IMG/VR virus record: IMGVR_UViG_3300031862_000015
Span: 1-38,961 of that record
DNA: 38,961 nucleotides
Reading direction: 5' to 3' (one strand)
Source of the DNA: a virus
In this document: one piece after another, positions 1-38,961 of the stretch
Numbering within the stretch: position 1 is the stretch's first letter
Layout: each line of letters begins with the position of its first letter
Program-made: the position numbers and the translations under genes
The notes under the pieces: model-generated
The model's database searches: none
What the model was told of the DNA's origin: nothing
What the model saw: only the letters and a program-made list of their open reading frames with translations

Positions 1-25
1 AGCCGCAGATGTTCCTGCGGCTTTT
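1..25 (+). terminator. Intrinsic terminator at the circular junction
   Basis: AGCCGCAG (1-8) pairs with CTGCGGCT (15-22) around a 6-nt loop and a T-run follows. The last bases of the window, AAAAGCCGCAGATG, are the same hairpin's left half with three more A's. On the closed circle the stem becomes 11 bp, AAAAGCCGCAG against CTGCGGCTTTT. With A's on one side and T's on the other it could work on both strands. It lies between a promoter near 38870 and the first gene at 55, so it may attenuate that gene. Confidence 0.85.
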
Positions 26-54
26 AGCTTTTATAGGAAAAATTAGGAAAAATT

Positions 55-2916: not shown

Positions 2917-3080
2917 AATTTTCCTATATTCATCCATCTGGCAATGAAGTTGATTGCTGGTATAACCCCAGAACTCATTATAGCAAATATAAATTTAGAA
3001 AAGTTAATCTCTTAAAAAGATTATACAATATATCAAAATTAATTCTATGGAATTTAGAAGAAAAATGGAGAAGAAAATGA
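2913..3080 (+). CDS. Small basic protein of unknown function
   Basis: This 55-residue protein is rich in Lys, Tyr and Trp and follows GGAGGAAAAG, a good ribosome binding site. It is coupled by ATGA to the gene before and overlaps the short ATG that opens the broken frame at 3077. No domain is recognised. Confidence 0.5.
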   Translation: MKFSYIHPSGNEVDCWYNPRTHYSKYKFRKVNLLKRLYNISKLILWNLEEKWRRK

Positions 3081-3158
3081 AAAAACTAAAAAGGCAAAAG
3101 AGTAAGAATTAAATTAGATAACAATCAAGAAGTTGAAGGAATAATTATAGAAGATTAA
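3077..3158 (+). pseudogene. Frameshifted 26-codon gene
   Basis: From the ATG at 3077 the frame closes after 11 codons. Skipping one A in the AAAAA run near 3088-3092 gives MKKLK followed by GKRVRIKLDNNQEVEGIIIE and a final D, a sensible beta-rich mini-protein ending at 3158. The stop lies inside copy 2 of the 32-bp repeat. It could be a real one-base insertion, an assembly error in a homopolymer, or recoding. Confidence 0.4.
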
Positions 3159-3181
3159 TAAGAATATTTAAATTAAGAAGG
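3150..3181 (+). repeat. 32-bp direct repeat, copy 2
   Basis: This is an exact copy of 2781-2812. It ends just before the ribosome binding region of the HTH gene at 3195. See copy 1. Confidence 0.85.
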
Positions 3182-3194
3182 GGCAAAGGACACA

Positions 3195-3389
3195 ATGAAA
3201 GAATGGTTCACCCTAAATCAAGTATCAAAAATAGAGCACTTTCCTTATAAAAATAGACAAACTATCAAGAATTTAGTTATATCTGGCCAGATTAAAGCTA
3301 TGATCACCGGAAAAGGCAGAGGGAGAAGATATCTCATAAATATAAAATCTGTAAAAGAGTATATTAAAAAAGCTCAAAAAGGAAACTAA
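3195..3389 (+). CDS. Excisionase-like helix-turn-helix protein
   Basis: This 64-residue protein has the pattern of MerR/Xis-type small DNA-binding domains: an N-terminal WFTLNQVSKIE helix-turn, a second helix NRQTIKNLVISGQIKA, a glycine/arginine wing GKGRGRRYLIN, then SVKEYIKKAQ. Proteins of this kind act as excisionases, directionality factors or simple repressors. No integrase is present, so a transcriptional role is more likely than excision. It directly precedes the tRNA-like RNA. Confidence 0.75.
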   Translation: MKEWFTLNQVSKIEHFPYKNRQTIKNLVISGQIKAMITGKGRGRRYLINIKSVKEYIKKAQKGN

Positions 3390-4957: not shown

Positions 4958-5320
4958 ATGAGCAAAAAAATCATCCCAATGAGCGAGTACGTGCTTGTCG
5001 AAGATCAAGAAGACAACAAATTATCAAGTGGGATTGTTGTGGCACAAGAAAAAGATAAACAATCACAAATTGGAAAGGTAATTGATTTAGAAACCTTTAA
5101 TAACGAAGAAATTAATTTACTGTTAAAAGCTGGCATAAAAATCACCCTCCAAGATTTAAAGGAGCTAACAAAACAAAACCAAATCAAAAAAGATAGTCTG
5201 GTTATTTATAAAAAATACTCCGGTAACCAAGTAGAACTTGAAGGAAAGAAATATAAACTCATTGCCTTTTCTGATATAATTGGTATAATAAAGGAAGAAA
5301 ATGGAAAAAGAAAAGATTAG
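4958..5320 (+). CDS. groES: Phage co-chaperonin, GroES-like with insertion
   Basis: This 120-residue protein caps the GroEL ring. KIIPMSEYVLVEDQ (4-17) matches the first GroES strands, and SSGIVVAQEKDKQSQIGKVI covers the mobile loop, where SGIVV stands for the GroEL-binding GGIVL tripeptide region, and the following strand. DSLVIYKKYSGNQVELEGKK and YKLIAFSDIIGII are the last strands. Typical GroES is about 97 residues. Here roughly 30 extra residues, about 44-75 (ETFNNEEINLLLKAGIKITL...), lie where the barrel roof loop would be. It sits 134 bp before groEL, with a short gene between. Its leader folds (element B). Identification rests on motif order and on the groEL neighbour. Confidence 0.85.
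   Translation: MSKKIIPMSEYVLVEDQEDNKLSSGIVVAQEKDKQSQIGKVIDLETFNNEEINLLLKAGIKITLQDLKELTKQNQIKKDSLVIYKKYSGNQVELEGKKYKLIAFSDIIGIIKEENGKRKD
5272..5289 (+). promoter_or_regulatory. Twin extended -10 boxes inside groES, before groEL
   Basis: TGATATAAT (5272-5280) and TGGTATAAT (5281-5289) lie back to back in the last codons of groES. TTGCCT (5262-5267) is 16 bp upstream of the second. They could give groEL extra transcription independent of the groES leader. The DNA also encodes protein, so chance is possible. Confidence 0.45.
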
Positions 5321-5495
5321 ATATTGGGAACAACGAATCCTCAATAAACAAAAGCAAGTTTTAGACCTAATCAAGGAAATGAACTCTCATCTCATATTTA
5401 TAGGTAGAGAAGAAAGATATACTTTACAATTTAAGAAAGAAAGGAGCATTTCAAATGCCAAAAAAACTTCTATTCAACGAAAAAGCGAGAACTAA
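5301..5495 (+). CDS. Short gene between groES and groEL
   Basis: This 64-residue frame starts after AAGGAAGAAA. It encodes a helical, Lys/Glu-rich N-terminus (RYWEQRILNKQKQVLDLIKE), then IFIGREERYTLQFKKE. Its start overlaps the end of groES and its last 13 codons overlap groEL in another frame, so the C-terminal residues may be uninformative. No family is recognised. It could be a small adaptor or merely an open stretch. Confidence 0.45.
   Translation: MEKEKIRYWEQRILNKQKQVLDLIKEMNSHLIFIGREERYTLQFKKERSISNAKKTSIQRKSEN
5437..5463 (+). repeat. 27-bp translation-start repeat, groEL copy
   Basis: The 18 bases before the groEL ATG (AAGAAAGGAGCATTTCAA) and the following ATGCCAAAA are identical to 19173-19199 before a late structural gene. 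A near copy precedes the scaffold gene (AAAGAAAGGAGCATT before 14639). Confidence 0.8.
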
Positions 5496-7083
5496 ATTAT
5501 TAAAAGGAGCGAAGATTGTCGCCGATGCTGTAGGGTCTACACTGGGCCCCAAAGCGAATAACGTCGCTATAGAGAGACCATTTGGCGCGCCTTCTGTCCT
5601 GCATGATGGGGTCTCGGTTGCCAAAGAGATTGATCTAAAAGACCCCGATGAGAACCTGGGAGCGCAACTCATCAAAGAGGCGGCGCAGAAGACAAATGAT
5701 AAAGCCGGCGATGGAACCACTACAGCCACTATTTTAACTTATGCGATGACCCAAGAAGCTATCAAGAATATCGCCGCCGGAGCTAACGCTATGATGTTAA
5801 AAAAAGGCATGGAATTAGCAGTTAAGGATATAGTTAGATCTCTTAAAAGGCTGGCCAGAAAAATTAAAACTAACGATGAGATTAAAAATATAGCTACCAT
5901 CAGTGCTCAAGACGAAACTATTGGAAATCTAATCACATCGGCTATAAAAAAACTCGGCAAGAAATGTATTATTGTAGTAGAAGAATCCGCCAAACCAACT
6001 ATGGAAATGGAATACAAAGAAGGTATGCAATTTGATAAAGGTTGGGTTTCGCCTTACTTTGTCACTAATCCGGAGACGATGGAAGCAATTATCGAAGACG
6101 CCTGGATTATGATAACCGATGCTAAAATAACTACCAACGCTCAATTTATAGAATGGGCTAAGAATATCGAAAACCAATATAGCGAAGGAAAACCCCAACC
6201 TCAAATGCCTAAGAATATCGTGGTCATCGCTTCGGAGGTTTCCGGAATTGCTCTTGCCAGTATGATTCAAAACAAAATGCAAGGATTTCTGAATATTCTC
6301 GCCGTTCAAGCCCCTCAATATGGAGAAGCTCAAAAAGACATTTTAAGAGATATTGCGGTAGTTACCAATGGAAATTTTATATCCGAAGAGGCCGGCGGAT
6401 CTTTGGCCACAATGAAACTACAAGACTTTGGACACGCTAAGAGAGTAGTCTCTACCAAAGACAGCACTATTATCGTTGACGGAGAAGGGAGTAAAGAAGG
6501 CATTACTCATTACACTCATATACTTGAAGAGCTATTAAACAAAACAACCAGTGAATTTGAAAAGGAGAAGTTAGAAGAGAGAATTGCAAAACTAACTTCC
6601 GGCATTGCTGTGATTAATGTTGGCGCGCCTTCTGAAATGGAAATGAAAGAAAAGAAAGAGCGCTGCATCGATGCCATCGAGGCAACGAAAGCGGCGATTG
6701 AGGAAGGTATTGTTAGGGGTGGAGAAGTAGCATATCTGGCCGCTATTAACGGATTACAATGTGAAAGCGCCGGGGATATTAAGACAGGATATAACTTAGT
6801 ATTAAAAGCGGTCGTGAGACCGTTTGAGGTTCTGATGGAAAATTCGGGCTACGATTCTGGGATGATGCTGGAAAGACTGCAAGCAACCGAGATGGGGATT
6901 GATGTCAGAGATGGTATCAAAAAAGATATGATAAAAGCCGGGATTATCGATCCGGTTAAAGTCAGTCGAGTGGCTTTGCAAAACGCCCTCTCTTGCGCTT
7001 GCTCCATAATGACTACTAATTGTCTTATAACAGACATTAAGGAAAATAAAGATGATTCCGGAACAATATCGCAAACTCAATAA
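5455..7083 (+). CDS. groEL: Phage-encoded chaperonin GroEL
   Basis: This 542-residue protein is full length for the family (about 540-548). Visible features are STLGPKANNVAIERPFGAPS (28-47), the ATP-binding GDGTTTAT (85-92, Asp86 matching E. coli Asp87), the apical start EGMQFDKGWVSPYFVTNPET, and the hinge/ATPase segment SEMEMKEKKERCIDAIEATK with Asp406 matching E. coli Asp398. RGGEVAY then stands for AGGGVAL. The apical domain carries about ten extra residues around YSEGKPQPQMP (242-252). The GGM-rich tail is absent; it ends SGTISQTQ. With its GroES-like partner it should form an ATP-driven folding chamber in the host cytoplasm, probably for phage virion proteins. It is preceded by AAGAAAGGAG. 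Confidence 0.97.
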   Translation: MPKKLLFNEKARTKLLKGAKIVADAVGSTLGPKANNVAIERPFGAPSVLHDGVSVAKEIDLKDPDENLGAQLIKEAAQKTNDKAGDGTTTATILTYAMTQEAIKNIAAGANAMMLKKGMELAVKDIVRSLKRLARKIKTNDEIKNIATISAQDETIGNLITSAIKKLGKKCIIVVEESAKPTMEMEYKEGMQFDKGWVSPYFVTNPETMEAIIEDAWIMITDAKITTNAQFIEWAKNIENQYSEGKPQPQMPKNIVVIASEVSGIALASMIQNKMQGFLNILAVQAPQYGEAQKDILRDIAVVTNGNFISEEAGGSLATMKLQDFGHAKRVVSTKDSTIIVDGEGSKEGITHYTHILEELLNKTTSEFEKEKLEERIAKLTSGIAVINVGAPSEMEMKEKKERCIDAIEATKAAIEEGIVRGGEVAYLAAINGLQCESAGDIKTGYNLVLKAVVRPFEVLMENSGYDSGMMLERLQATEMGIDVRDGIKKDMIKAGIIDPVKVSRVALQNALSCACSIMTTNCLITDIKENKDDSGTISQTQ

Positions 7084-29288: not shown

Positions 29289-32200
29289 ATGGCTAAAAAG
29301 AAACGCATTAGTCCTTGGGGAGGTGGAGATATAAGTACCAGTCCATGGGAACCATCAGAAGAACCATCAGCTGTTGGTGATGTTTCTTCTGCAATTCCCT
29401 CGCCAACCCAAGACACCAGATCTACATTACAAAAAGCAAAAGAATACTTAAGCAAAGCTAAAAATACCTTAGCCAGTGTTTTTACTAAACAATACTGGCA
29501 ACCCGCTCCTCAAGTAAGAGCCAGAGATGTAATCAGGGAGATATACACTGGACCTCTTTCAACTTATGCTGTAGCCAAAAAAGCAGCAGAAGAAGGAACA
29601 TATGCCGTTCAACATCCTGTTCAGGCCGCTAAAAATGTAGCCAAGGGATTAGGACCTCTCACCGAACATTATCTTCTTTCACCTTTTGCAAGAAGGAAAG
29701 AAGTGCATGAAGCCTATAGAACAGGCGGAGCTAAGGGGGCGGCTAAAGAAGCAGCGAAGCAGTTCGCTGGACAACAAGCAGCTATGGTTGAAACTGGACT
29801 CTTATTTTTTGGAGGCGCTGAAGCCAGGGGAGCTAAACTATTACCAACTCTTGGGAAGGAAGCGGCTACTGGTCTTGGCTTTGGAGCTACAGAGTATGCT
29901 GGTAGACTTTTACAGGGTGAGAAACCTTCACTAAAAGGAGCCGCCAGAGAAATTGTGCCACCAACTGTGGCTTTTCCAGTGCTATCACAAGCTGGAAGAA
30001 TGGTTTTCGGAGCTCGAAAGATTAAAGTCACCCCCGAAGAAGAAAAGTCTGCCTTAGATTATGTAATGTCAAGAGGAACTAAATTAAGAGAAACGCTTAC
30101 AATTCACCCTGAAGATAAAAGAATTATGGCTAATTACATCGACGCTTCAAGAATTGGTGGTGGTCCCAGTAGACAACTTGCAACTGATGCTCAAAGAATA
30201 GCTGAACACTATAATATACGACCAAAAGGAAATCAAGGGTTAGCGGACGCCTTTGATGAATCTTTACAAAGAACAGCCGGCATTGGTAGAGAGTATTTAA
30301 GAACAGATTTAGAACTAAATAAAGGTAAAGTAATTAAACCCCTACCCACAGGAGAGGGGATAGCCCAAGCTAAAGCCTCTGGTCAGTCTTTCGACGAGTG
30401 GGTGAAGGGGCAGAAAATTATTGAAAATAAAAATAACGGAGGAATTATTAAGTATAAGGATGGAGAATTAAAATATTCAGTTGAGGACGGAGTGATGATT
30501 ATAGATGATATAGATGTCAAGACTCAAAAACAGGGAACGGGAACAGTATTGATGCAGGAAGCGGAAGATGTTGCAGAAACGCTTGGAGTTGAAAGAATTG
30601 AGTTAGGAGCGTTTCCTAAAAACAAAACTATCACGAGTGAACAGTTAAGAGATTTTTATGAAAATCTCGGATATAATGTAAACGCAGATATGCCTTTCGA
30701 AAAACAAACATATTACGATATGAGTAAGTCAGTTAGCGGAAACAACATTGAATTCAAAACCCGTTCCCAACTAAAAGCAGAGTGGGATGCCACCAAAGGA
30801 ATAAAAGAAGTCCAGCCTCCCTTATTTAGATTAAAAGATGATTTTGAAAAAGCTACTGGTATTACAATTTCTGATCAACAAGAAAAACAAATCACAGATC
30901 TTAATAAAAAGATATTCGGCGACGAGAATATTAAGATAACCGGTCAGATTTTAACTCCAAAAGGTCAAGAAGCTTTAGGTTCTTATAGGGACGGTATGAT
31001 TAAGATTTTAGGTGGTCAGGCAGATGTGACTGACACTTTTTATCACGAAGCAGTTCATAAATATTTAGACGTATTCACAGCGGCTGAGGAACATGCCAGT
31101 CTTCTATTGCAAGCTCAAAAACAATTTGGCACTACTGATTTTGCTTCTACCGAAGAAAGATTAGCTGAGAACTTTATCAATTATGCTTCTGGGGTTGAAA
31201 AGACATCACCTTTCAAGGTTGCATTTGATAGAATTATTACCCGGATTAAGAGTTACTTTAGAAATGAAGACACAATCAAATCATTCTATGATGATATTCT
31301 AAGCGGAAAGGCAGCGAAACCTACTCCAGAAATTCCTGCCCTTCCTGGTGTTGTATCGGAAGATTTATCTAAATTACCTACGCCCGCTAAAGCTTTGCAA
31401 ACTGAACCCACCCCTGCTGAATTGACAGCCGCTCTTGAACCTTCTGCTAAAGATTTCAGAAGTAATCTCCGATCTGTGCTGTTAGAAAAAGCACAAGGTT
31501 ACGAAGCGCAAGCTCAACAACGGGAACTTTACGATAACATTCTCGGTAAAGAAACAATCAATGAAATTAAGAAAGTATTAAGATCAAAGGCAGCTCAAGA
31601 ACCCGACTTTGACGTCACTAAAATAGAAGGATTTGACGAAATAGCTCAGGTTCTTCGTGATTACACCGGTCGTCCTGATATGAGTAGCAGTGAAGCTCTT
31701 GATTTGATAGACAATCTTCCGACTTGGGCAGAGATTAACAAACAAAAACCAGTTTCTTTGAAACCTCTCGGTGATGTTCAGCAAGTTTTCAAACCCGCCG
31801 AGGGGAGAGAAGTTATGGTGCCTTCTTCTCAGCTTCCGGTTGGAGAGGGTGAAGTTAAACCCAGTCGTTTAGCTGATAGGTTAACACGTAGAATTGAAAA
31901 TCTGACCGAAGAGCAAAAGCAGTCAATTCCGAACTACCAGGTTATGAATAAGCAAGACCAGATTGCCAAAGCAGCCGCTTTTGTTGAGAAATATCCTGAT
32001 GACACAATGGCTATTCTTCAAGGAAAGAAACAACCGCCTCAGGGTTTGCTTAGAAACTCTCTCGCCTTGGCGATGGAAGAAAAGGCAGTCTTAGATAAAG
32101 ATGGAGATTTGGCAATGAAATTAGGCAGTCTTTATTCTACCAGAGCTGGTCAAGAAATCAGCATCTTAACCGAACGTGATCCCGAGAGTCCTGTTAGGTA

Positions 32201-32363
32201 TATTTCAGATATTCAAACTGCGAGAATTGAAAGAAAAGGCGGAGCTGAAGTTGTAAATAAGGCTCGGCAGAGAGAAGTGGCAAATTTAAATAATGAAATA
32301 AAAAAGGCAGCGCCCACCAAAAATCAATGGGCAAACTTTATTGATAGTATAAAGTGTCATTGA
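29289..32363 (+). CDS. Polyvalent internal protein with GNAT and zincin motifs
   Basis: This 1024-residue multidomain protein begins with a basic, amphipathic Ala/Lys-rich region (about 45-240, with possible membrane-active helices such as GLLFFGGAEARG). A GNAT acetyltransferase-like domain follows (about 383-475): IIDDIDVKTQKQGTGTVLMQ, with QxxGxG at 413-418, and the family-like FYENLGYNV. A zincin-like metallopeptidase comes next, TFYHEAVHKYLDVF with HEAVH at 586-590 and a probable third ligand in TEERLAENF (Glu627). The remainder is helical. Such phage polyvalent proteins enter cells with the DNA and act on host targets. It is preceded by AAGGAGGTTAG; an 18-bp duplication overlaps its end. 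Confidence 0.75.
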   Translation: MAKKKRISPWGGGDISTSPWEPSEEPSAVGDVSSAIPSPTQDTRSTLQKAKEYLSKAKNTLASVFTKQYWQPAPQVRARDVIREIYTGPLSTYAVAKKAAEEGTYAVQHPVQAAKNVAKGLGPLTEHYLLSPFARRKEVHEAYRTGGAKGAAKEAAKQFAGQQAAMVETGLLFFGGAEARGAKLLPTLGKEAATGLGFGATEYAGRLLQGEKPSLKGAAREIVPPTVAFPVLSQAGRMVFGARKIKVTPEEEKSALDYVMSRGTKLRETLTIHPEDKRIMANYIDASRIGGGPSRQLATDAQRIAEHYNIRPKGNQGLADAFDESLQRTAGIGREYLRTDLELNKGKVIKPLPTGEGIAQAKASGQSFDEWVKGQKIIENKNNGGIIKYKDGELKYSVEDGVMIIDDIDVKTQKQGTGTVLMQEAEDVAETLGVERIELGAFPKNKTITSEQLRDFYENLGYNVNADMPFEKQTYYDMSKSVSGNNIEFKTRSQLKAEWDATKGIKEVQPPLFRLKDDFEKATGITISDQQEKQITDLNKKIFGDENIKITGQILTPKGQEALGSYRDGMIKILGGQADVTDTFYHEAVHKYLDVFTAAEEHASLLLQAQKQFGTTDFASTEERLAENFINYASGVEKTSPFKVAFDRIITRIKSYFRNEDTIKSFYDDILSGKAAKPTPEIPALPGVVSEDLSKLPTPAKALQTEPTPAELTAALEPSAKDFRSNLRSVLLEKAQGYEAQAQQRELYDNILGKETINEIKKVLRSKAAQEPDFDVTKIEGFDEIAQVLRDYTGRPDMSSSEALDLIDNLPTWAEINKQKPVSLKPLGDVQQVFKPAEGREVMVPSSQLPVGEGEVKPSRLADRLTRRIENLTEEQKQSIPNYQVMNKQDQIAKAAAFVEKYPDDTMAILQGKKQPPQGLLRNSLALAMEEKAVLDKDGDLAMKLGSLYSTRAGQEISILTERDPESPVRYISDIQTARIERKGGAEVVNKARQREVANLNNEIKKAAPTKNQWANFIDSIKCH

Positions 32364-32376
32364 TAGTATAAAGTGT
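32340..32376 (+). repeat. 18-bp tandem duplication at the end of the polyvalent gene
   Basis: ATTGATAGTATAAAGTGT occurs at 32340-32357 and 32359-32376, a 19-bp period. The first copy encodes IDSIKC, then the frame closes after one extra His. The second copy in the original frame would give the same peptide and a TAA. A recent slippage event is likely. Confidence 0.9.
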
Positions 32377-32392
32377 TAAATATGGAGGATAA

Positions 32393-34462
32393 ATGGCTTT
32401 TTGTTTAATGCCAAAAGAAGCAGACAGATTTAAAACCGCTTTAATATCCGGCGAGATTGATTTTATGAAACTTTCAGAGATGACCAGCGAGGATAGAAAC
32501 AAATACTTAGCTCAATTCGTCGGAGAAGAAAACGCCAAGCCTGTTAATGCTTTATTTGAAAGCAAGCTCTTGCTTAAGAATATAGAATCCGGGATGGTCA
32601 CTTGGGCTAAGAAAGTAATGGGAATTACCCCGCCTGTAAGACGAGATTTGATGTCTAAGATTACCAGATTACGAGAAGGTATGCAAACCACAAATCAAGA
32701 AATGTTCCTAAAAGATTTGGTTGATACTCGGCTTGGAGTTAATGTAAATTCTGAAGAATCAAAAACAATAGTAGAAATGGCAGACAAAGTCAGAACTTTA
32801 AGAGACAAGGTTGACCCTACTACTTTTAAATTTCCCACCGAAAAAGACCGCTTTGATTATGGGACCGCTCATGCTCTTTTAAATGAATATGTTGGCAATA
32901 TAAAGGGCAAAGCAATGAAATTAGGACTTAAAGATTACTTGGCTCATCCTCTGGAAATTCTTTCTGGTCTCTCCGCAACGTTTAAGTCCGTGGTTGCCTC
33001 AATGGATAATAGCTTTTTTGGTAGGCAGGGGATTAAAACTCTTTTTACCAACCCCGATATTTGGATGAAGGATTTTGCTAAATCTTGGGTTGATATTGGC
33101 AAAAGATTAATAGGAAAAGACCCGATGACTGCTATTAGGGCAGATGTAATTTCACGTCCTAATGCTCTAAACGGAAAATACAAAGCTGGGGGATACGCCT
33201 TAGATGTTATATCAGAAGAAGCTTTTCCATCCCAACTACCATCAAAAGTTCCTATTTTAGGAAGATTATATCAAGCCTCAGAAGACGCCTTCAACGGAGG
33301 GGCTTTAAGAATACGCGCCGACTTGGCTGATAGAGTAATTGCTGTTGCCGAAAGACACGGTAGAAATACCCTGGACCCAGTAGAAGCTAAAGGTTTAGGT
33401 AAGCTGGTCAATTCTCTTACTGGCCGAGCGAGTATTGGAAAAGCTGAACCTTTAGGAAAAGAGATAAACGCCGTTATGTTTTCAATTAAATTTTTGAAAT
33501 CAAACTTTGATACTTTGACTGCTCATTTATTTGATCCGGGCGTTAGTCCTTATGTTAAGAAACAGGCTGCCGGAAACCTCTTAAAGATTATCGGTGCCAC
33601 CAGTGCTATTTTAGGGATTGCTGAGTTTCTTCACCCTGGAAGTGTAGAACTGGATCCAAGAAGCTCCAATTTCGGGAAGATTAAAATAGGCAATACCCGT
33701 TTTGATGTAACTGGGGGAATGGCCTCGATAATAACTCTCGCTTCGAGAATAACACCAACTATGCATAACGGAGAATGGGGCTTCTGGACTAAAAGTAGCA
33801 CAACCGGAGAATATACAAAGCTTGGTGGCAAAGAGTATGGAGCACAAACCGCTATGGATGTAATTGATAATTTCTGGCAGGGGAAACTTGCGCCTGGAGC
33901 CGGTTTGTTAAGAGATTTATGGAAAGAACAGACTTATCAAGGTGCGAAATTAACACTTAAAGGTGAACTTCAACAATTAGGAACTCCTATGGCTATACAG
34001 AATTCTTTAGAATTGCTCAAAGACCCTAACGGAGCTAATGCTGTTCTGGGGACAATTATGGATGTTTTGGGATTTAACGTCAGTACCTATGGAAGTAAAA
34101 CTCAGGATATTCAAAATAAAATGGGTATAACAAATATGCCTTCAAATGTAATAAATGAAATTGACAGATTAACTTCAACTGGCAATGCCCCATCAATTCC
34201 AGATTTAGAAAACGAATCTTCAATTCAGAACTTCAAGAGCCAGGTTTCGGGAGATGAGTATAATCAATTTATAAATGAAGTAAGATCTTCACTTCCCGGG
34301 GCTTACCAGAGTATGATGATGAATGTTCAGTATATGGGTCAGTCTGACGCTAACAAAAAGAAGTTCCTTGATAGCGCCAAAAATCAGACTATTAGTAACC
34401 TATTAAAGAAGTATGGCTATAAAAAACCGAAAACAAAAAGAATAAAAATTCCTCAATTGTGA
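32393..34462 (+). CDS. Large internal virion protein
   Basis: This 689-residue protein starts MAFCLMPKEADRFKTALISG, with MTSEDRNKYLAQFVGEENAK soon after, an opening I associate with large internal proteins of uncultured phages encoded after a polyvalent protein. It is mostly helical and includes hydrophobic stretches (LKIIGATSAILGIAEFLH, about 398-416) that might contact membranes. No enzyme motif is evident. ATGGAGGATAA precedes the ATG. The gene may once have been continuous with the polyvalent gene, but each has its own start here. Confidence 0.65.
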   Translation: MAFCLMPKEADRFKTALISGEIDFMKLSEMTSEDRNKYLAQFVGEENAKPVNALFESKLLLKNIESGMVTWAKKVMGITPPVRRDLMSKITRLREGMQTTNQEMFLKDLVDTRLGVNVNSEESKTIVEMADKVRTLRDKVDPTTFKFPTEKDRFDYGTAHALLNEYVGNIKGKAMKLGLKDYLAHPLEILSGLSATFKSVVASMDNSFFGRQGIKTLFTNPDIWMKDFAKSWVDIGKRLIGKDPMTAIRADVISRPNALNGKYKAGGYALDVISEEAFPSQLPSKVPILGRLYQASEDAFNGGALRIRADLADRVIAVAERHGRNTLDPVEAKGLGKLVNSLTGRASIGKAEPLGKEINAVMFSIKFLKSNFDTLTAHLFDPGVSPYVKKQAAGNLLKIIGATSAILGIAEFLHPGSVELDPRSSNFGKIKIGNTRFDVTGGMASIITLASRITPTMHNGEWGFWTKSSTTGEYTKLGGKEYGAQTAMDVIDNFWQGKLAPGAGLLRDLWKEQTYQGAKLTLKGELQQLGTPMAIQNSLELLKDPNGANAVLGTIMDVLGFNVSTYGSKTQDIQNKMGITNMPSNVINEIDRLTSTGNAPSIPDLENESSIQNFKSQVSGDEYNQFINEVRSSLPGAYQSMMMNVQYMGQSDANKKKFLDSAKNQTISNLLKKYGYKKPKTKRIKIPQL

Positions 34463-34881: not shown

Positions 34882-36120
34882 ATGAAATTTTTGGTAATCG
34901 ATTTTGGATTATTTTGTGAGCACGCAGCTGCCCTAACTGATAACGGAAAGAATCAGGTCTATTACTATTCTCAGTGGGAGTCAAATTTCCCCGCTTTTGA
35001 TAAATATATTATTGGTGAAGGTAGTGGCGTTACTAAAATTAAGAACTTCTGGGAGTATGTTGATCAAGTTGACTGCATTGTCAACTTTGATGTCTATAAT
35101 AATGATGTGATCACTTATTTAAGAGATAAAGGGTATCGAGTTTATGGAGCCGGCCTTGGTGAGATATTAGAAAATGATCGTTGGGCAATGAAAACGCTTG
35201 TTAAAAAATTGGGACTGCCAGTAAATAATGCAGTAAGAATTGCCGGCACCCCTGATCTACGAGAGTACCTTAAAAAAAACAAAGACAAATACATTAAAAT
35301 TGATTTATTTCGCCAAAATCTCGAAAGTTTTCATTCTAAAGATTATAAATCAGTAGAAATCATTATTGATGAAATGGACAATGTTTTGGGTCCCTTCAAA
35401 GACGACTTTGAATTTATTGTTGAAGATGCGATTGACGCCAAGGAATCGGCAGAGCCGGGTTTTGATGGGTTTTTTAACGGTAAAGAATTTGTCAAACCTT
35501 ATTTATTTGGTTATGAAATTGAAAAAGCTTTTTACATCGGCAAATTTACTAATCAATTAGCGCCCCAACTTCAAAATACTTTAGATAAATTAACACCAGT
35601 TTTACGCGAAGTGGATTATCGGGGAGCAATGTCTTTAGAAGAAAAAGTGGTCTCTAAAGATACCAGCTACTTATTAGATGTATGTGCGCGCCAACCAGCC
35701 CCTCTTTCAGCCGGTTATATCGAATGGATTAAAAACTATCCCGAGTTGATTTGGAAGATTGCCGGTGCCGAGGCAGTAAAAATTGAGCCTGTCGCTACCT
35801 ACGTTGGCGCCATGCCTTTAGAAAGTAGCCACGCTAATGAACATTGGCTTCGTATTTTAATTGATGATGTCGCAAAAAATCGCAGAAATATCAAATTCAG
35901 ACAGTTTGTTAAGAAAGGTAATTTCTATTACGCTGTTCCGGGAATGAGTTCGGTTGTTGTAATTGTTGCTTGGGGCGAATCAGTTGATGAGGTATATAAT
36001 AAAATTAAGAAGTTGATTGATAAAGTGGAAGCTTATGGCTTGCAAAAAGATGTCTTTGGAGGTTTGGATCTTGCTCACAAAGAAATAGAAAAAGGAAAAC
36101 AGCTCGGAGTATCTTTTTAA
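34882..36120 (+). CDS. ATP-grasp family enzyme, PurD-like
   Basis: This 412-residue protein has the ATP-grasp layout. The N-terminal part is Rossmann-like (KFLVIDFGLFCEHAAALTDN, YVDQVDCIVNFDVYNNDVIT), then VYGAGLGEILENDRWAMKTL, equivalent to the region that precedes the ATP-binding domain in PurD-like ligases. KYIKIDLFRQNLESFHSKDY carries a candidate nucleotide-binding Lys, and SYLLDVCARQPAPLSAGY (about 262-279) lies where the metal/phosphate motif of the family ends. ATP-grasp enzymes join a carboxylate to an amine or thiol using ATP. Substrate is unknown. It lies between virion and lysis genes, unlike a purine pathway gene. Confidence 0.7.
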   Translation: MKFLVIDFGLFCEHAAALTDNGKNQVYYYSQWESNFPAFDKYIIGEGSGVTKIKNFWEYVDQVDCIVNFDVYNNDVITYLRDKGYRVYGAGLGEILENDRWAMKTLVKKLGLPVNNAVRIAGTPDLREYLKKNKDKYIKIDLFRQNLESFHSKDYKSVEIIIDEMDNVLGPFKDDFEFIVEDAIDAKESAEPGFDGFFNGKEFVKPYLFGYEIEKAFYIGKFTNQLAPQLQNTLDKLTPVLREVDYRGAMSLEEKVVSKDTSYLLDVCARQPAPLSAGYIEWIKNYPELIWKIAGAEAVKIEPVATYVGAMPLESSHANEHWLRILIDDVAKNRRNIKFRQFVKKGNFYYAVPGMSSVVVIVAWGESVDEVYNKIKKLIDKVEAYGLQKDVFGGLDLAHKEIEKGKQLGVSF

Positions 36121-37226: not shown

Positions 37227-38039
37227 ATGAATTTGGATGATTTTATAGCAAAATATAATGGGAAAAGCATTGATTACGATTCGGCTTATGGAACTCAGTG
37301 TACTGATATTTGTAAACTCTGGGAATCTGAAAATGGCTGGCCGATTATTAGAGGCAACGCCCTTGACCAGCCCAATAATATAGATAAAAATTTCTATGAA
37401 TATATTTCAATTAACAAAGAAAAGCCTAAAGCAGGAAATTTAGTAATCTGGGGAGCTGGTATTGGAAAATATGGCCATATCGCAATTTTTATTGGTGATG
37501 GTGGGAGTTATTTTAAAAGTTTTGACCAAAATTTCCCACTCGGTTCACCAGCACATATACAACAACATAATTGGAATAATGTAATTGGGTTTATAACACC
37601 CAGAGGAGCAAAAATGAAAGAATTTATTAAATTTCCCACATCAGATAAAGTTTATGGCTGGGTAGAAAGCGGGACTGATGTTGATTGGTCTAAATTAAAA
37701 ACCCCATATTCTAATGAGTGGATTAAATTTGCTGATAATGAAAAAGTTTATCAATGGGTAAATGATGGAGCTTTTGTTGATTGGTCTAAACTAAAAGAAA
37801 TTGAAAGTCCAATAGTTTTAGGAAAAACAATTGCTGATTTGAAGGAACAATTAAAAAAGGCACAAGAAATTTCTTCTCCGCCCTGTGATAATCAAGATTT
37901 AAAAGACCAAATAGAGAAATTAGAAGGAGCTTTGAGTCAAGGATTAGATAGATATAGTTTTGCAGAGCTTTTACGAGCTCTGGGTCGAAAAATTATTCAA
38001 TTTATTATTGATGGAGATAAAAAAAGAAAGGAGAATTAA
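37227..38039 (+). CDS. CHAP-domain endolysin
   Basis: This 270-residue enzyme has an N-terminal CHAP amidase/endopeptidase (about 1-127) with catalytic Cys25 in YGTQCTDICKLW and His84 in YGHIAIFIGDGG. Two repeats follow at about 132-158 and 164-190 (KVYGWVESGTDVDWSKLK and KVYQWVNDGAFVDWSKLK), probably a wall-binding or linker module. A coiled coil (DLKDQIEKLEGALSQGL) and basic tail end it. It cuts peptide bonds in peptidoglycan at lysis. There is no signal peptide, so a holin must release it. Ribosome site GACAGGAGGAACTTAT. Confidence 0.9.
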   Translation: MNLDDFIAKYNGKSIDYDSAYGTQCTDICKLWESENGWPIIRGNALDQPNNIDKNFYEYISINKEKPKAGNLVIWGAGIGKYGHIAIFIGDGGSYFKSFDQNFPLGSPAHIQQHNWNNVIGFITPRGAKMKEFIKFPTSDKVYGWVESGTDVDWSKLKTPYSNEWIKFADNEKVYQWVNDGAFVDWSKLKEIESPIVLGKTIADLKEQLKKAQEISSPPCDNQDLKDQIEKLEGALSQGLDRYSFAELLRALGRKIIQFIIDGDKKRKEN

Positions 38040-38209
38040 TGTTAGATGCACTTATTGGCAAGAAAACCTACATTTTAGCAATTATTACTATTTTGTATGC
38101 TATTACTGGTATGATTATTGGTAAGATTGATATTGCTGTTGGCTGGGCGATAATTCTTGGAAGTTTGCAGGTTATGGGATTACGCGCCGGAATTTCTAAT
38201 CAGTCCTAA
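38039..38209 (+). CDS. Small two-helix membrane protein, possible holin
   Basis: This 56-residue protein has two hydrophobic segments, TYILAIITILYAITGMIIG (about 10-28) and IDIAVGWAIILGSLQVMGL (about 30-48), with short charged ends. The start overlaps the endolysin stop (TAATG) after AAAGGAGAATTA. Position right after the endolysin and its topology suggest a holin or pinholin partner. Confidence 0.7.
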   Translation: MLDALIGKKTYILAIITILYAITGMIIGKIDIAVGWAIILGSLQVMGLRAGISNQS

Positions 38210-38214
38210 AAGAC

Positions 38215-38243
38215 TTGACTTTTATTTTGTGATATGGTATACT
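38215..38243 (+). promoter_or_regulatory. Promoter for transglycosylase gene
   Basis: TTGACT (38215-38220) is 17 bp before TATACT (38238-38243); TGATATGG lies between. It gives the last gene its own transcript. Confidence 0.75.
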
Positions 38244-38285
38244 GGTTTATGGTCGTAAAATTCGCTTTAAACGAGGGGAATTAAA

Positions 38286-38866
38286 ATGAATTTACACACA
38301 CTTAGATTAAAACAGATCAGTTGGAAAGTAATTGTTCTGATTATTCTTGTAGTTCTCGCAGGATGGGGTGTTTACCAAGCCGGAATAGCCGCTGGTGACT
38401 GGTTGGTTAGATATCTTGATCTTGATCACGTTTCAGCCGTCCCACCGGTGCATTTAAAGTAGGACGTGCAGAAGTCCCAAAGGACAAGAAGCCAATCGCT
38501 CAAGTCCAAGAACTTCGTCCGAAGACAATTTACGAAAAAGCTTCTGAAGCTTACGGATCAAAGATTCCGCCTAAGATTCTTTCTGCTATTCACGAAGTAG
38601 AAACAGGACGTCGGGGTGATACCTCTATCAAGAGTTCTGCTGGCGCCACCGGGCCGATGCAATTTATGCCGGATACTTGGAAGGCTTACGGGGTTGATGG
38701 TGATGGTGACGGAAGGGCTGATATTACTGATTTGGATGATTCGGTTTATTCTGCCGCTCACTATCTGACCACCAACTTCAACGAAAAGGGATCTATTGAA
38801 TTGGCTCTCTGGCAGTATAACCATAGTTGGGATTACGTGCATAAAGTATTGAAAATTGCCGGGTAG
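38286..38866 (+). CDS. Membrane-anchored lytic transglycosylase made by -1 frameshift
   Basis: The ATG at 38286 (after GAGGGGAATTAAA) opens a 58-residue frame with a transmembrane helix WKVIVLIILVVLAGWGVY (13-30), closing at TAG 38460. An overlapping -1 frame runs to 38866 and encodes an SLT-type transglycosylase, but has no ATG, GTG or TTG between its upstream TGA and the domain. The slippery T-TTA-AAG (38453-38459) lies directly before TAG. A -1 slip gives one 193-residue protein: anchor, linker VGRAEVPKDKKPIAQ, then KILSAIHEVETG (Glu106 probable acid/base) and SSAGATGPMQFMPDTW. The internal ATG at 38657 would lose the catalytic Glu. It would cleave glycan strands at the membrane. A one-base assembly error is the alternative. 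Confidence 0.75.
38453..38459 (+). promoter_or_regulatory. -1 frameshift slippery heptamer
   Basis: TTTAAAG fits X XXY YYZ in the zero frame (CAT TTA AAG TAG), with a stop codon in the next position. Weak downstream hairpins are possible (GGAC/GTCC at 38462-38465 and 38474-38477, or GTCC/GGAC at 38474-38477 and 38482-38485). No upstream Shine-Dalgarno stimulator is apparent. Confidence 0.65.
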
Positions 38867-38869
38867 GAC

Positions 38870-38898
38870 TTGACAAGATTTTAGGGGTATGTTAGGAT
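38870..38898 (+). promoter_or_regulatory. Promoter reading across the circular junction
   Basis: TTGACA (38870-38875) and TAGGAT (38893-38898) are 17 bp apart with TGT just before the -10. On the circle it would transcribe through the junction terminator into the initiator gene at 55. A possible 13-residue peptide (38908-38949) starts about 3 nt after the expected start and stops exactly before the hairpin. Confidence 0.65.
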
Positions 38899-38950
38899 TG
38901 AAATGTAATGGAACATCATTATATGCTTAAATTAGTTAATTTAGGCTAAA

Positions 38951-38961
38951 AGCCGCAGATG
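38951..38961. repeat. Terminal 11-bp overlap with window start
   Basis: AGCCGCAGATG at the end equals bases 1-11. It marks a circular assembly or a circularly permuted genome; the bases across the join complete a perfect terminator. Confidence 0.85.

Follow-up and report, generated by a model that had tools for sequence, protein, structure and literature searches.

The window analysed here is the whole of an IMG/VR virus record (IMGVR_UViG_3300031862_000015, 38,961 nucleotides), in which genes for terminase, portal and major head protein are present. The record is classed as linear, and its first 11 bases are the same as its last 11 (AGCCGCAGATG). When the ends are joined through these identical bases, positions 38946 to 38961 and window positions 1-29 become the left and right arms of a strong terminator hairpin, a perfect 15-bp stem of -26.1 kcal/mol (z -6.2). 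The shared ends together with the joined terminator make it very probable that the genome is circularly permuted and is complete, with a length of about 38.95 kb, and this places the gene of interest here, an SLT gene, away from any ragged end. A poor-quality record end, or host DNA at the border of a prophage, is less likely for the same reasons. In such a permuted genome the SLT gene would lie between a holin-like gene and a DnaD-like gene.

The lysis genes, the SLT gene and all signals described with them are on the plus strand. A CHAP-domain endolysin, recognised by profile matches and the main lysis enzyme of the phage, occupies positions 37227 to 38039 and is followed by a 56-amino-acid membrane protein (38039 to 38209), which is holin-like by position and hydrophobicity only; family searches with the latter gave no match. 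A 412-amino-acid protein without PHROGs or Pfam match (window 34882-36120) adjoins the lysis genes both here and in the related phage record G002, where its counterpart is 69% identical; the terminases of these two phages are 72% and their head proteins 84% identical. Elsewhere in the genome, GroES-like and GroEL-like genes are both present (window 4958-7083), with homologs of both in the related records G001, G002 and G012. There is also a tandem duplication of about 17-19 bases (ATTGATAGTATAAAGTGT, window 32339-32375), at the extreme end of one open reading frame (29289-32363) and shortly before another (32393-34462), and this duplication may have split two frames that were once joined.

The SLT gene is preceded by a sigma-70-like promoter found by consensus scan (TTGACT-17-TATACT at 38215 to 38243, with TG before the -10 element and 10 of 12 consensus matches), and a ribosome-binding site, GAGGGG, can be read directly at 38273 to 38278, seven bases before the ATG at 38286. 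From this ATG a zero-frame open reading frame of 58 codons, encoding a membrane anchor and the start of a linker, extends to 38462 and ends in CAT TTA AAG TAG, with the TAG at 38460-38462. In the -1 frame, the open stretch that follows a stop at 38423 encodes the rest of the linker and an SLT domain (38426 to 38866, ending in TAG at 38864-38866). Both frames are thus open for only 37 nucleotides (38426 to 38462), bounded by the -1 frame stop at 38423 and the zero-frame stop at 38460, and any change of frame must lie within this overlap. A previous sequence-only reading had given the extent of the feature as 38453-38866; the gene should be taken upstream to 38286 to include the anchor and to 38215 to include the promoter. 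Directly 3' of the gene there is a second promoter-like site, again by consensus only (TTGACA-17-TAGGAT, 38870 to 38898). It stands only about 50-60 bases ahead of the terminator (window 38870-38961), and might give a short transcript or attenuate the next gene (55-828).

The two reading frames are the two halves of one gene, as the sequence-only reading had supposed. Codon log-odds trained on the other genes of this phage point to frame 0 as far as about 38420 and to frame -1 beyond about 38466, so that the coding signal switches frame inside the overlap. Moreover, a search of the -1 frame upstream of the SLT domain for ATG, GTG or TTG found none, and just ATC and ATT codons occur there; the first ATG, at 38657, is already within the domain. 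The earlier claim that this half has no start codon of its own was therefore correct, and a standard independent start is ruled out. There is also no need to invoke an alternative genetic code, because the relevant stop sits in the other frame.

One could still imagine the SLT half as a separate soluble protein, translated after the short open reading frame by re-initiation or from a non-standard start (ATC 38495, ATT 38528 or 38564). An AAAGGA does lie upstream of ATC 38495, and weak starts may occur in this phage group, as a membrane-anchored enzyme of G002 has ATA/ATT after its ribosome-binding site. However, translation starts very poorly at ATC and ATT, the resulting protein would be without the anchor that it needs to reach the wall, and the frame signal begins upstream of all these candidates. 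We regard this explanation as very improbable.

The N-terminus of the anchor is positively charged, and a single transmembrane segment follows at about residues 11-29, where the Kyte-Doolittle average reaches its maximum of 2.36. By the positive-inside rule, these features suggest an N-in/C-out orientation with the enzyme facing the wall. Matches of the anchor to spanins or transporters are weak (E 0.005-0.01) and confined to the hydrophobic segment, and such identities were rejected.

The -1 frame encodes a complete SLT domain with its catalytic glutamate, as had been proposed. The SLT half matches the Pfam families SLT_2 (PF13406; 3.7e-16, 59.6 bits against a curated cut-off of 24.3) and SLT (PF01464; 5.4e-10, 39.3 bits against a cut-off of 21.3). 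In an alignment with 11 relatives it retains all 20 invariant columns, including E27 and G41-F48; the glutamate of the V/I-E-S/T-G motif is encoded at 38600-38602, and the GxxGPMQF motif is present as GATGPMQF. AlphaFold2 predicts a well-folded part at about 38528-38863, with pLDDT about 95 across most of residues 33-144 of the SLT half, and a disordered stretch in the first 30 residues, where the frame junction falls. The best Foldseek matches of this model are E. coli Slt35, SltB1 and Slt70, with a lysozyme-like fold. Taken together, motifs and model identify the predicted product as a member of the SLT lytic transglycosylase family. It has the fold and the catalytic glutamate region in common with E. 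coli Slt35/MltB and Slt70, but its catalytic unit is much smaller, with a single membrane anchor and no extra domains.

An old pseudogene would not be expected to look like this: the domain is wholly conserved and a second lesion is absent, and this explanation was rejected. Because all 20 invariant columns have been kept although the phage branch is as long as 0.76 changes per site, the domain appears to have been under selection until recently. If the frame break is a lesion, its conservation along so long a branch argues that the break is recent.

The nearest relatives of the gene are chromosomal SLT genes of Patescibacteria, which are 43-62% identical over the domain and have the same signal/anchor-linker-SLT build. 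In one class of this group, 40 of 55 genomes gave matches, mostly to a protein of this build of about 200-300 amino acids; none of the 40 contains a frameshift and 39 are without a stop. Identity over the domain is highest, at 56-62%, for copies from a small class of seven genomes, and these copies too are continuous in one frame. In the tree, the phage copy falls in the same part as these closest copies, on its long branch and with neighbours that are not resolved. The host genes, in Candidatus Berkelbacteria and related classes, resemble the phage copy in their signal or anchor, linker, C-terminal SLT domain and motifs, but are read in one frame, while in the phage copy the linker is shorter and the frame is broken. 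A single disrupted ortholog was seen, in Candidatus Berkelbacteria (L161, match 3001-3339 / L178), where an in-frame TAA stands two residues ahead of the catalytic glutamate (AVH*VESG). Among IMG/VR and GenBank phages the SLT matches are all distant. The 31 IMG/VR loci at 30-42% identity were left out of the ortholog set; those among them that were read in three frames look like large multi-domain phage proteins. The virus is a phage of Patescibacteria, ultra-small bacteria, with a host-derived, horizontally acquired wall-enzyme gene, which would have been taken from a lineage of this bacterial group.

Within the phages, the gene is missing from all 47 related records searched, including G002 (the positive control worked). 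It has the profile of an accessory gene of the 'moron' type, with its own promoter, a raised G+C content (46-48%, versus 31-35% in the preceding lysis genes), a terminator behind it and no counterpart in related phages. Anchored lysozyme-like proteins of other, unrelated kinds are encoded by three phages of the wider group, always in a single frame: G002 (L168:7747-8247), G035 (L216:1432-2028, minus strand) and G027 (L217:1351-1749), with the fold assigned partly by eye for G002 and G027, whose Pfam matches, to glucosaminidase and SLT respectively, are sub-threshold. The G002 reading frame has a strong ribosome-binding site, AGGAGG, then ATA/ATT and no standard start codon, and a start at ATT or ATA is possible there.

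At the joint itself, the zero frame does contain the slippery heptamer that the sequence-only reading had pointed out. T TTA AAG occupies 38453 to 38459 in the X XXY YYZ register, and the stop codon follows directly. Across the codon positions of this phage, such heptamers have a frequency of 0.6%. As a null model, 60,000 one-base deletions were simulated in the phage's genes. In 0.95% of these (1.7% when the deletion fell inside a run) the new stop was touched by a slippery heptamer, and in 0.28% (0.84% inside runs) by one of the X XXA AAR (lysine) type; a heptamer anywhere in the overlap was found in 7-14%. Given this rarity, the position of the heptamer at the stop is suggestive.

One explanation of the joint is programmed -1 ribosomal frameshifting. 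A fraction of ribosomes would slip at T TTA AAG to TTT AAA, yielding a short membrane peptide and a limited amount of anchored transglycosylase. The register of the heptamer is right, U_UUA_AAG is among the shift sites employed in assays of frameshifting (Atkins et al. 2016, PMC5009743), the SLT half has neither a start of its own nor any damage to its domain, and the frame break falls in a disordered linker. Against this, structure downstream of the heptamer gave z values of -1.5, -0.7 and -1.7 versus shuffles, none convincingly beyond chance, and no Shine-Dalgarno-like stimulator was found upstream, with no purine-rich element in 38426-38452. Some frameshifting in tailed phages is said to work without stimulators (PMC5009743), so that their absence does not exclude programming. 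Conservation of TTTAAAG-TAG among relatives, which the earlier reading had put forward as a check, did not emerge: IMG/VR holds no close homolog, the more distant orthologs, including all those of the host lineage, are unshifted, and the gene is accessory. These results do not bear out the word 'programmed' in that reading, and we judge such a mechanism possible yet doubtful. Slightly more doubtful still is the fuller proposal that the phage has brought a host wall enzyme under -1 frameshift control, making mostly the anchor alone and few anchored transglycosylases and so limiting wall damage.

The same reading knew of no frameshifting in a lysis enzyme, and here the literature says otherwise. 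The lysin of Lactococcus phage vML3 is described as two overlapping genes (Shearman et al. 1994, as cited in PMC10885494 and PMC3111421), and the PRFect paper (PMC10885494), citing that study, counts lysins among the genes in which frameshifts are known. By these citing accounts the vML3 lysin is, like this gene, a phage wall enzyme spread over overlapping reading frames, although enzyme and phage are both different. If the SLT gene does use frameshifting, it would then not be the first case in a phage lysin, and this precedent counts in favour of programming. The tail-assembly chaperone G/GT of lambda likewise has an XXXYYYZ site near the zero-frame stop and gives a short and a long product, but it is widely conserved among long-tailed phages, and nothing comparable was seen for the SLT gene site.

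Transcriptional slippage at the joint, which would produce some mRNAs with the frame restored, is the least likely of the explanations considered. Short runs of T and A are present there, but they are just three bases long, and such slippage usually needs runs of about eight or more.

In our judgement, by which the explanations were weighed, the phage copy was probably functional until recently and was then broken by a recent indel or by a consensus error. It is a single accessory gene with its own promoter, for a small membrane-anchored lytic transglycosylase with a predicted N-in/C-out anchor, a disordered linker and a putatively wall-facing SLT domain. The frame is interrupted a single time, within the linker, by a net shift of -1, which would have arisen either in this phage lineage or in the consensus of the record. 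From the present copy, most ribosomes would stop after 58 amino acids, and slipping at T TTA AAG would act as a leak through which some full-length enzyme may still be made.

A recent lesion or error is favoured because the Patescibacteria orthologs and the anchored lysozyme-like proteins of the phage group are all unshifted, and because the heptamer has neither downstream structure beyond chance nor a Shine-Dalgarno-like stimulator. The absence of the gene from the related phage records gives no hint that a recoding element has been conserved. A priori, recoding in an accessory enzyme is rare, and it is common for an accessory gene to carry a single lesion or for a consensus to contain a single error. 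On the other side, a lesion must place a heptamer at the stop by chance, as happened in only about 1-1.7% of simulated deletions (0.3-0.8% for the lysine type). Nor is the record generally careless, which speaks against poor assembly: the 21 kb that could be compared with relatives show no further break of frame. An independent copy of the locus was sought in IMG/VR with a junction pattern tolerant of length, and near copies were sought through the anchor alone, the endolysin and blastn in phages, with no hits; lacking an independent copy in IMG/VR, a lesion or error is favoured and not demonstrated.

Should the shift prove to be programmed, the gene would plainly illustrate how frameshifting can set the dose of a membrane-anchored lytic transglycosylase, and this in a group of bacteria on whose translation little work has been done. 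If instead the break is a lesion or an error, the finding comes down to a wall enzyme that a phage of Patescibacteria acquired horizontally and transcribes separately, and to a phage group in which membrane-anchored lysozyme-like proteins recur as unrelated versions.
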